A stretch of 64,000 nucleotides of DNA from Nitrospira sp. (lineage in GTDB: Bacteria; Nitrospirota; Nitrospiria; Nitrospirales; Nitrospiraceae), in the NCBI GenBank assembly GCA_022226955.1, contig CP092079.1, forward strand, positions 537,217 to 601,216. The letters run 5' to 3'. Each line of letters starts with the position of its first letter. Within the stretch, counting starts at the first letter, position 1. The notes beneath the pieces are model-generated. The model ran no database searches, was not told the origin of the DNA, and saw only the letters and a program-made list of their open reading frames with translations. A program made the position numbers and the translations under genes. This document shows, piece after piece, positions 26,266 through 52,719 of the stretch.

Positions 26266-26343
26266 GGTGGGTGTAGCTCAGTTGGTTAGAGCGCTGGATT
26301 GTGGATCCGGAGGTCGCGGGTTCGAAACCCGTCACTCACCCCA
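26266..26343 (+). tRNA. tRNA-His (anticodon GTG)
   Basis: A full cloverleaf can be drawn: an acceptor GGTGGGTG pairing with CACTCACC (eight pairs including the extra G-1:C73 pair that marks tRNA-His), a D-arm AGCTCAGTTGGTTAGAGC, an anticodon loop with GTG at 26301-26303, and a T-arm GCGGGTTCGAAACCCGT. CCA is encoded at 26341-26343. A T-run (CTTTTTT) follows at once and may end transcription. No integrase gene or duplicated 3' end is seen nearby. Confidence 0.97.
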
Positions 26344-50733: not shown

Positions 50734-51417
50734 ATGAAAAGCGAAATACTGTATCCGGGGGCCTTTCCAATGGTGCGCATTGAGTTGGCGGCAGGGGAAC
50801 ACCTCAAAGCCGAATCGGGCGCAATGGTCGCTTCTTCGCCGACGGTAGACGTCGAAAGCAAGATGGAGGGCGGTTTTCTTGGCGCGCTCTCGCGCAAACT
50901 TCTGACGGGAGAAAAATTCTTCTTTCAGACATTGCGGGCGAGTCGTGGGCCTGGTGAAGTGTTGCTGGCGCCGACGGTGCCGGGTGAAGTTGTCCTTCTT
51001 GATCTCGACGGTGTGAATGAATACATGGTGCAGAAGGACGGCTTTCTGGCGGGCGCCGAGGGCATTAACATCGAAAGCAAGATGCAGAGTTTGAGCCGCG
51101 GACTCTTGGGGGGCGAAGGATTTTTCATTCTGAAGATTGGCGGCAAAGGGATGCTGGCGCTGAACAGTTTCGGCGCGATCCATAAGATCGAACTCAGGCC
51201 GGATCAAGAATACATCGTCGACAACAGCCATCTCGTGGCCTGGTCGGCGACGACGTCGTACAACATCGAGAAAGCCTCTTCCGGTTGGGTCGCCAGCTTC
51301 ACGTCGGGCGAAGGGCTGGTCTGCCGATTCCGTGGGCCGGGGATTGTCTACATCCAAAGCCGCAATCCAGGCAGTTTTGGATCGTGGATCAGGCAATTCA
51401 TCCCGGTGTCGGAGTAG
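50734..51417 (+). CDS. TIGR00266/AIM24-family protein
   Basis: The 227-residue protein is a repeated beta-rich domain: EILYPGAFPMVRIELAAGEHLKAESGAMVASSPTVDVE, GGFLGALSRKLLTGEKFFFQTLRA, and a second copy LSRGLLGGEGFFILKIGGKG. This matches the TIGR00266/AIM24 family, whose structure is a trimeric TRAP-like barrel of unknown role. The N-terminal ESGAM and the C-terminal RNPGSFGSWIRQF are typical. A repeat-like element begins at the last base of its stop codon. Confidence 0.88.
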   Translation: MKSEILYPGAFPMVRIELAAGEHLKAESGAMVASSPTVDVESKMEGGFLGALSRKLLTGEKFFFQTLRASRGPGEVLLAPTVPGEVVLLDLDGVNEYMVQKDGFLAGAEGINIESKMQSLSRGLLGGEGFFILKIGGKGMLALNSFGAIHKIELRPDQEYIVDNSHLVAWSATTSYNIEKASSGWVASFTSGEGLVCRFRGPGIVYIQSRNPGSFGSWIRQFIPVSE

Positions 51418-51539
51418 CGGATGCTGAAAACGTCAGCGAACTGCGTTCTCGGCTCGATTCAATCCTCAACGTACCTCAAGGGTACGCCTGCGGTTGTCTC
51501 TCGCCTGCGGCCTTGTTGGCCGCCGTTTTGAGCATCCGC
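51417..51539. repeat. 123-bp inverted-repeat element (REP/MITE-like)
   Basis: Terminal arms GCGGATGCTGAAAAC (51417-51431) and GTTTTGAGCATCCGC (51525-51539) match in 14 of 15 pairs. The interior holds a CGTACC-TCAAG-GGTACG hairpin (51470-51486), two copies of CGCCTGCGG, and a GGCC-TTGTT-GGCC hairpin. It carries no gene and fills the gap between the AIM24-like and M48 genes. The shape fits a non-autonomous palindromic repeat family, and I recall similar sequences in Nitrospira intergenic DNA. No second copy was found by eye in this window. Confidence 0.6.
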
Positions 51540-51576
51540 CAAGAGCGTTGCCTTTAATCAGTCAATCGATCCTACG

Positions 51577-52719
51577 ATGACTCAATTTTCTCCCAATGCC
51601 CTCTGCTTCGGTGAGGAGTTTCCTGCCGCCGGGGCTCCTTGCCTGGTGCAGATTGAAGGCGATGGACTGACGATGACGTATGAGCTGGCAGGCGCATCTG
51701 CTATCTCGGAGCGCGTGCTGTTTACTGGGCTGTCGGTATCCGCCGGGGGGCTCGACCATGACCATCTCGTGTTGAAATGGGGGACGGGCGCGCAGGCCCG
51801 CACGCTCTACCTCAAGCACCCCGATCTTATTCGGGCGTTCCGGGAAGCGGCGCCGGATCACTTAAGCCAGCCCTTTGAGCAGGCGGCGGAGCGCGTGCGG
51901 CAGGTGCGCCGACGGCATCGCGCCACATGGGGGGTTGTTGCCGGTTCGATCCTGGCGGTGGCGCTGGGGCTGTGGTTTGGAGCCGATCTATTGGTCGAGA
52001 TGGCGGTGAGCCGCATGCCGGTGGAGTGGGAGCAGAAATTGGGCGAAGCGGCCTACAAGGATTTTCTCAGCCATCAAGACGTGATGAAAGAGGGTCCTGC
52101 CGTCAAGGCGGTCGAAGAGATGACGCAGCGCCTGGTCGAGCAGATCCCAGACAATCCCTACAAGTTTCAGGTGACTGTGGTGAAGAGCGATGTCGTCAAT
52201 GCGTTTGCGCTGCCGGGCGGCTACGTCGTCGTGTTCACCGGCTTGATGAAAAAAGCGGACAACGGAGAAGAAGTGGCGGGCGTGTTGGGCCATGAGCTTA
52301 ACCATGTGTTGCAGCGCCATGGGCTTGAGCGGATTGTGAAAAGTATGGGCGTGATGGCGGCGGTCGCGATCATTGTCGGCGATCAGCAGGGGCTCATCGG
52401 ATTAATGCGGCAAGTCGGCGTCGAATTGCTGACACTGAAGTTCGGCCGCGCGCAGGAAACGGAAGCCGATCTTACGGGGTTGCAGTTAGTCTATCGCGCC
52501 AAGATCGATCCCAACGGCATGGTCACGTTCTTTCAGAAACTGGCTGAAAAAGACGAGGGGCGGGTCGAGTGGCTCTCAACGCATCCGATGAGCAGCGCGC
52601 GGGCTGAGCGGTTGAAGGCCGAGTTGGCGGCCCTTCCCAAACGGTCCCCCGAACCGTTTACCTTTGAGTGGAGTGCCGTGCAGAGCGCGCTGGGCGTTCA
52701 GCCGGTGGCGGCACCGTAA
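51577..52719 (+). CDS. M48-family membrane metallopeptidase
   Basis: The 380-residue protein has one membrane helix (WGVVAGSILAVALGLWFGADLL, about 115-136) and the zinc site HELNH (His239-Glu240-x-x-His243) followed by ETEADLTGLQLV with the third ligand Glu. The VTVVKSDVVNAFALPGGYVVVFTGL strand pair precedes it. This is the HtpX/Ste24/BepA-type M48 layout, with an N-terminal extra domain of unknown role. It likely acts in envelope protein quality control. Confidence 0.85.
   Translation: MTQFSPNALCFGEEFPAAGAPCLVQIEGDGLTMTYELAGASAISERVLFTGLSVSAGGLDHDHLVLKWGTGAQARTLYLKHPDLIRAFREAAPDHLSQPFEQAAERVRQVRRRHRATWGVVAGSILAVALGLWFGADLLVEMAVSRMPVEWEQKLGEAAYKDFLSHQDVMKEGPAVKAVEEMTQRLVEQIPDNPYKFQVTVVKSDVVNAFALPGGYVVVFTGLMKKADNGEEVAGVLGHELNHVLQRHGLERIVKSMGVMAAVAIIVGDQQGLIGLMRQVGVELLTLKFGRAQETEADLTGLQLVYRAKIDPNGMVTFFQKLAEKDEGRVEWLSTHPMSSARAERLKAELAALPKRSPEPFTFEWSAVQSALGVQPVAAP

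Follow-up and report, generated by a model that had tools for sequence, protein, structure and literature searches.

Examination of a 64,000-nucleotide stretch of a Nitrospira sp. genome (this whole stretch being called the window here) reveals a compound hairpin of about 120 bp that lies in intergenic DNA between an AIM24-like gene upstream and an M48 peptidase gene downstream, both on the + strand. Comparative sequence analysis of this hairpin, its relatives and their flanks indicates that, in identity and origin, it is very probably an IS5-type MITE. Its parts and neighbors in the window are:

50734-51417, + strand: gene for an AIM24-like protein, 227 aa (ORF; Pfam PF01987 AIM24, E 4e-72)
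51414-51417, + strand: GTAG at the left edge, the YTAR-type target position, which includes the stop codon (from the sequence and the YTAR flanks of the family)
51418-51538, + strand: the element, in all likelihood an IS5-type MITE in its 120-bp hairpin form (124.5 bits with the covariance model, matched at 51416-51539)
51418-51432, + strand: left arm and left terminal inverted repeat, CGGATGCTGAAAACG; the family form is CAGGATGCTGAAAAA
51470-51486, + strand: apical hairpin, CGTACC (51470-51475) with GGTACG (51481-51486) (from the fold; kept in the 30-copy alignment)
51485-51493 and 51502-51510, + strand: internal direct repeat of 9 bases, CGCCTGCGG (from the sequence)
51507-51523, + strand: second small hairpin, GCGGCC (51507-51512), TTGTT, GGCCGC (51518-51523) (from the sequence and fold)
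51524-51538, + strand: right arm, CGTTTTGAGCATCCG, pairing with the left arm except at G51426·G51530 (from the sequence, fold and alignment)
51577-52719, + strand: gene for an M48 peptidase, in the same direction as AIM24 (ORF; Pfam PF01435)

The window copy and its family

The TAG stop of the AIM24-like gene (51415-51417) directly abuts the element. The terminal 15-base inverted repeats reported in the first-pass annotation are paired at 14 of 15 positions, G51426·G51530 being the exception, and the two inner hairpins and the internal direct repeat that it described are all present in an element that, as it also stated, contains no gene. The extent that it gave, 51417-51539, does hold the hairpin, but the stop codon ends on 51417, and the element proper spans 51418-51538. 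A longer inverted repeat of 25 nt (arms 51417-51441 and 51515-51539) is 84% complementary, and the fold of this copy, at -58.6 kcal/mol (z -4.3), is equaled by 0 of 200 shuffled sequences. In the family consensus the pairing partner of the stretch 51507-51523 is the left side and not its own small hairpin. Of the full-length structure, the window copy retains the left end and the right hairpin arm; its tail and right-hand terminal repeat are not recognisable. The edges are those of an old copy whose right end is gone, with GTAG at the left and no YTAR at the right, and no target duplication is detectable around it. A consensus scan scored no intrinsic terminator in 51300-51700, even though the inner stem leads into a short run of T, and the element has no Rfam match at the gathering score or at E≤1. 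The sole Rfam match within the window is a tRNA gene (26267-26340).

The suggestion that a family of such elements is scattered through this genome, a single contig of 3,635,119 bases, was amply confirmed, and the element is not single-copy. A DNA similarity search places it at no fewer than 42 sites, the window's own included, this being a lower bound as 40 of the 54 first-look candidates were scored. A covariance model trained on 30 own-genome copies, which had been fetched with their flanks and are alignable over their full length, gives at least 69 matches at E≤0.01, or 65 distinct ones after removal of four antisense duplicates; this too is a lower bound, from 150 scored candidates out of 1,671. 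Within the window the model matches this copy alone, on both strands.

Beyond this genome, copies are present in 54 of 59 genomes of the genus, and a phylum-wide query with the consensus matched 139 of 395 genomes, of which 105 belong to the family, a further 26 to the order and 7 to the class, with 1 outside it. First-look candidates, which are unscored, number 184-335 per genome in twelve g4 genomes and 39 and 68 in two other g4 genomes. A profile built from the 30 copies yielded 257 hits in 192 loci, and 312 in 214 loci at a looser cut-off. Among named records holding the repeat, all 80 listed of at least 119 stretches belong to Nitrospira and other Nitrospirota. Members of the family may already have been counted, undescribed, by RepRanger, whose table of species with REP counts includes Nitrospira moscoviensis (PMC12306157). 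We also observed a subfamily that has diverged and differs in its interior, around GGTCGT..CTCCCTGCGACGTACC, represented by L361-L363 (G000:C1 1560972, 1291216 and 1292309) and L347, with three of the four detected by the covariance model alone.

Ends, target sites and a probable IS5-family partner

Full-length members of the family, found mostly in relatives, measure about 200 bp and consist of the 120-bp hairpin and a tail of about 76 nt; they start with CAGGATGCTGAAAAA, finish with TTTTTCCGCAGCCTG and have no coding capacity. The ends were analyzed in 170 rows from the looser profile search that had the whole hairpin and enough flank, of which 114 had a parsable left end and 56 were dropped. 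The right terminal repeat TTTTTCCGCAGCCTG was found in 38 of the 114 parsed copies, at 74-77 nt past the right arm in 32 of them; the 38 include two own-genome members (L007 and L020) and L168, whose right end, lying at 153 nt, probably matches by chance. A YTAR 4-mer stands at the left of 22 and at the right of 26 of these tailed copies, the left 4-mers being CTAG (15), CTAA (4), GTAG (2), TTAG (2) and others. The left and right 4-mers are identical in 12 of the 38, as against a shuffled mean of 6.8 (13 of 2,000 shuffles reach 12), copies from different genomes not being independent. Where the left 4-mer is TTAG or CTAA (six copies), the right-hand 4-mer is a direct repeat of it in four, CTAG in two and an inverted form in none. 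Full-length copies in the genome G109 show TTAG/TTAG and CTAA/CTAA flanks, with unequal flanks in some (CTAG/TTAG at L292 and CTAG/CTAA at L293).

Tail-less copies have matching 4-mers in 1 of 76 cases, no more than the shuffled mean of 1.7. At that one locus, L008, a single TTAG is found in the empty site of the relative G029 and two surround the copy in our genome. The empty sites L022/G029, L027/G024 and L017/G043 retain the TAG at the point where the element begins. This comparison covered 16 of the 30 fetched own copies in three relatives, and 8 of the 48 site-genome combinations spanned the junction, of which L221 was unreadable and L005/G043 looks like a deletion and not an empty site. 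Given the ends, the direct 4-mer repeats and the G109 flanks, we interpret the unit as a MITE with a YTAR duplication. An HUH/IS200-like insertion without duplication had been entertained while CTAG seemed to be left-only, and was dropped after the tail and right end were found.

To find a partner, 98 genomes of the family were searched with the right-hand end as a pattern, and 70 had matches. G109 carries an IS that measures 1,324 bp when its duplications are counted; TTAG flanks it at either end, and its terminal repeats are the same for 16 bases. Its 342-aa transposase scores 278.9 bits with the IS5 family model NF033581 (IS5_4; cut-off 140) and contains the Pfam domains DUF772 and DDE_Tnp_1. 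The right end is common to the MITE and this IS, being identical over 15 bases, and the usual MITE left end, CAGGATGCTGAAAAA, is 2 of 15 bases off the G109 IS ends and one base off the ends of the IS in G287. The latter (L303, L325) represents a second IS5-type lineage, with a 56% identical transposase, the ends CAGGATGTTGAAAAAGCC and CTAG on both sides. The left end of the MITE is thus nearer to the G287 ends than to the G109 ends, so that more than one IS is a candidate for the exact partner.

Relatives of the G109 transposase are present in 28 of the 98 family genomes, and at eight loci they are 80-100% identical over most of the protein. At seven of these loci (L296-L301, L324) the ends are the same, apart from a single mismatch in 16 at most, and a YTAR 4-mer stands at left and right, though the two differ at L297 and L300; the flanks of the eighth, L302 in G012, are not YTAR. 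IS copies with the same ends and YTAR flanks occur in G013, G143, G283, G396 and G170, and among more distant IS relatives, those with both ends visible end in, for example, CAGGATGTTGAAAAAGCC or CAGGCTGTTGACAAAC and are mostly flanked by NTAR. Duplication of a YTAR target has been described for IS5 (PMC10359306, PMC5493358). Together the ends, the duplication and the partner argue strongly that the MITE was mobilised by an IS5-type transposase, which would cut at the MITE ends and insert it into YTAR. A search with the G109 protein found no matching transposase in this genome at E≤1e-30, and mobilisation here therefore belongs to history. The fetched loci, when examined for gene-carrying copies, gave partial-hit pairs 0.65-4.5 kb apart at L089, L117, L121, L146 and L157; at L117, the sole one of these inspected, the ORFs judged by eye are not transposase-like.

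The label REP/MITE in the first-pass annotation is thus upheld in its second half, by the terminal repeats, YTAR duplications, empty sites and IS5-family partner, but not as REP/RAYT. Likewise, of the matching RAYT or transposase gene that it envisaged, the RAYT is unlinked and a matching IS5-type gene was not found in this genome, but a relative supplies an IS5-family match. Movement of a REP/REPIN element by a RAYT (Y1 HUH) transposase might be read from the palindromic, extragenic and dispersed nature of the element, from the CTAG before many copies and GTAG before some, and from the six Y1 genes of this genome; we nevertheless consider it most improbable, as no copy was detected within 1.5 kb of any of these six loci, and the copies near 3 of 22 Y1 loci in the 12 g4 genomes were judged near chance given the 184-335 candidates per genome. 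Moreover, G052, G130, G199 and G357 are rich in copies or candidates, yet have no Y1 match at E≤0.001, and direct 4-base duplications with terminal repeats fit a DDE element and not an HUH insertion. A REP unit has been defined as a palindrome of 20-40 bp with a GTAG or CGTC tag (PMC3733652), whereas the unit here is 120-200 bp and its left 4-mers are mostly not GTAG. Just as little credence attaches to a structured cis-RNA or terminator inherited vertically without ever having been mobile: it would explain why 34 of 50 genomes (by a loose criterion) have the element at the AIM24-M48 position and why the fold is well kept among own copies, but is contradicted by the empty sites in close relatives and disfavored by the dozens of unlinked sites in the genome, the target duplications, the matching IS and the lack of an Rfam match. 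As a separate observation, three own Y1 genes (L031, L032 and L033) each lie between inverted repeats of their own, 20-25 bp long and some 0.7 kb from one another, for which no match to the MITE was detected.

Position at stop codons and gene context

Docking at stop codons, defined as a stop within 1 base of the left end, or, at the right, no more than 2 bases or else 70-82 nt beyond the hairpin, was seen in 15 of 32 own-genome copies and 41 of 117 copies in other genomes. The baseline is 159 of 1,365 harmless YTAR sites, namely those that are at a stop codon or in intergenic DNA, and the excess persists when the comparison is made with CTAG alone (64 of 408 at stops; p = 2e-7 and 3e-5). Docking favors the left, hairpin end over the right by 34 to 7 in other genomes (p = 3e-5) and stands at 11 versus 4 in the own genome (p = 0.12), counts in which right-docked copies with decayed tails could be under-represented. 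As element-free relatives have the stop at the same place, it is the target of the insertion and not a gift of the element, and a stop codon supplied by the element was rejected at the examined sites. YTAR contains TAA or TAG, so that an insertion can leave the stop codon and the gene intact, and insertions behind intact stop codons would survive. This offers a simple reason for the position of the element: the target holds the stop codon and its duplication spares the gene.

The docking and gene-context counts come from a simple codon-usage gene caller, not a standard annotator, and from copies that are not independent between related genomes. By this measure 1 of 35 copies in the own genome and 5 of 124 elsewhere lie inside called genes. 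In other genomes convergent gaps are over-represented (28 of 100 classified copies versus 37 of 272 other long gaps) and divergent gaps under-represented (8 of 100 versus 53 of 272); the own genome displays no orientation contrast, with 19 copies between codirectional, 5 between convergent and 5 between divergent genes.

Seven copies, all on the minus strand, form a 10.5-kb cluster (L366:2147-12632; G000:C1 about 1285746-1296231), and random placement of 65 copies never produced more than five together in 5,000 trials. The cluster has five apparently consecutive codirectional ORFs, each with a copy at its stop or no more than 6 bases from it, which code for two radical-SAM/B12 proteins, one protein without a Pfam match, a PhzF-like protein and a zinc dehydrogenase. 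This chain of genes and elements at 1.29 Mb raised the idea of integron attC sites, which was set aside as the core-site motifs of attC were not seen at the ends.

Pairing in the fold and comparison with known elements

Across the 30 own copies 93.0% of 1,077 cells are paired, as against 81.0% in shuffles, and two-sided changes number 115 cells against 33.5; 0 of 500 shuffles reach either observed value and sliding the partners destroys the signal, with the qualification that shuffling does not remove relatedness among the copies. The long stem of 18 pairs has 75 left and 74 right changes in these copies, with 59 compensated and 23 broken of 539 cells, where independence of the arms would predict about 128 broken. 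Another six copies, detected by DNA similarity and left out of the model, have 11 compensated and 4 broken cells (22.9 expected), and fourteen model-only copies, a biased set, have 42 and 22 (86.6 expected). The central G·G mismatch is retained in 28 of 30, 6 of 6 and 14 of 14 copies of these three sets (48 of 50), and the TGAAA/TTTGA core around it is exact in 27 of the 30 and varies in a few further copies.

The AIM24-M48 site could be compared across 50 genomes of the genus, in which both arms are seen in 34 (by the loose criterion), a left arm-like stretch only in 3 and neither in 13. A midpoint-rooted tree was made for 30 of these genomes, 21 of which have both arms, and copies fall on both sides of its deepest split; hence the insertion at this site is old, unless it happened twice. 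The insertion of the window copy downstream of AIM24 would accordingly date from early in the genus, and its tail and right end would have been lost since. The arms at this site vary by compensated changes (for instance GGATGCTG/GAGCATCC, GGCTGCTG/GAGCAGCC and GGCAGCTG/GAGCTGCC), and G029 has a mosaic of arms. Pairing reaches 426 cells, above all 2,000 shuffles (mean 388, maximum 411), and 50 of 476 cells are broken versus 18 compensated, with 127 broken expected under independence. Several species additionally have extra small hairpin modules inside the MITE loops, at the AIM24-M48 site (L046, L047, L048, L050 and L073) and at L293-L295, an example being GAGCTGCCAAGACAGCTC with a CCAAGA loop; these look like a second, nested repeat.

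The paired substitutions and the kept mismatch suggest that the folded form is under selection, maybe as a 3'-UTR hairpin. A neutral, decaying MITE, in which the paired changes predate insertion (in co-varying lineages) or stem from template-switch correction, is a rival to be taken seriously, even if we rate it as somewhat improbable. The differing ends of the IS relatives (CAGGCTGCGG, CAGGATGTTG and CAGGCTGTTG) might have given rise to co-varying subfamilies, a number of orthologous sites lack the element, and at the AIM24 site broken pairs exceed compensated ones. Neutral decay fits poorly, however, with the several two-sided changes that are confined to single copies and with the small number of broken pairs in the long stem of the own-genome copies; template-switch correction, for its part, would be expected to repair the G·G as well, yet the mismatch is kept. 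We lean to selection on the fold because plain palindrome repair should have removed this mismatch.

Selection could have kept the transcribed hairpin as the structured 3' end of the upstream mRNA, a proposal to which we give slightly less than an even chance. Against it stand the lack of a scored terminator-like site and, at the AIM24 site, the 50 broken of 476 cells, the mosaic in G029 and the 16 of 50 genomes in which the element is missing or cannot be recognised by two arms. For the window element such a 3'-UTR role is reasonable but unproven, and the hairpin could there influence how the message between AIM24 and M48 is terminated, processed or stabilised. We think it unlikely, though worth stating, that the family serves across Nitrospira as a domesticated and portable hairpin of 3'-UTRs, a view that would bring together YTAR delivery behind stops with the hairpin end first, the compensation, the near-fixed UGAAA/UUUGA core with its G·G, and gene runs acting as expression modules. 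The core with its mismatch might then be what an RNA-binding or processing protein recognises, and in gene runs, such as that of five at 1.29-1.30 Mb, each gene might have its own copy as an expression module. If the fold is truly selected, each genome would offer about 65 natural replicates of the passage from a transposon remnant to an RNA control element.

The above observations account for a repeat that each genome carries dozens of times, in a group of environmental importance most of which is uncultured, and tie it to an IS5-family partner. REP, BIME and REPIN elements are short, extragenic and palindromic, and often lie at the 3' ends of genes. The Nitrospira element resembles them in all these respects, but differs in its DDE-type ends and duplication, its lack of a RAYT link and its longer unit. 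With the IS5 family it shares the YTAR duplication (as described in PMC10359306 and PMC5493358) and a partner IS whose transposase scores above the IS5_4 cut-off; unlike IS5 elements, the MITE has no gene, and no copy of that transposase was found in this genome. Another point of comparison is MITEPsy1 of Pseudomonas syringae, a 100-nt MITE with 18-nt terminal repeats containing CTGAAAAAGCC, which is thought to derive from an IS, ISPsy2 (PMC3189936). As characterized there, it is likewise a short MITE with terminal repeats, whereas the Nitrospira MITE is 120 to about 200 bp long, forms a compound hairpin with a conserved mismatch, has spread through a bacterial family and keeps its pairing in old copies. 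Finally, the enterobacterial RU and the pneumococcal BOX, RUP and SPRITE are small, structured, intergenic mobile elements, some nested in one another and with suspected effects on mRNA (PMC2759123, PMC2229807, PMC10969869); going by these descriptions, the Nitrospira MITE is akin to them in character and inhabits different hosts.
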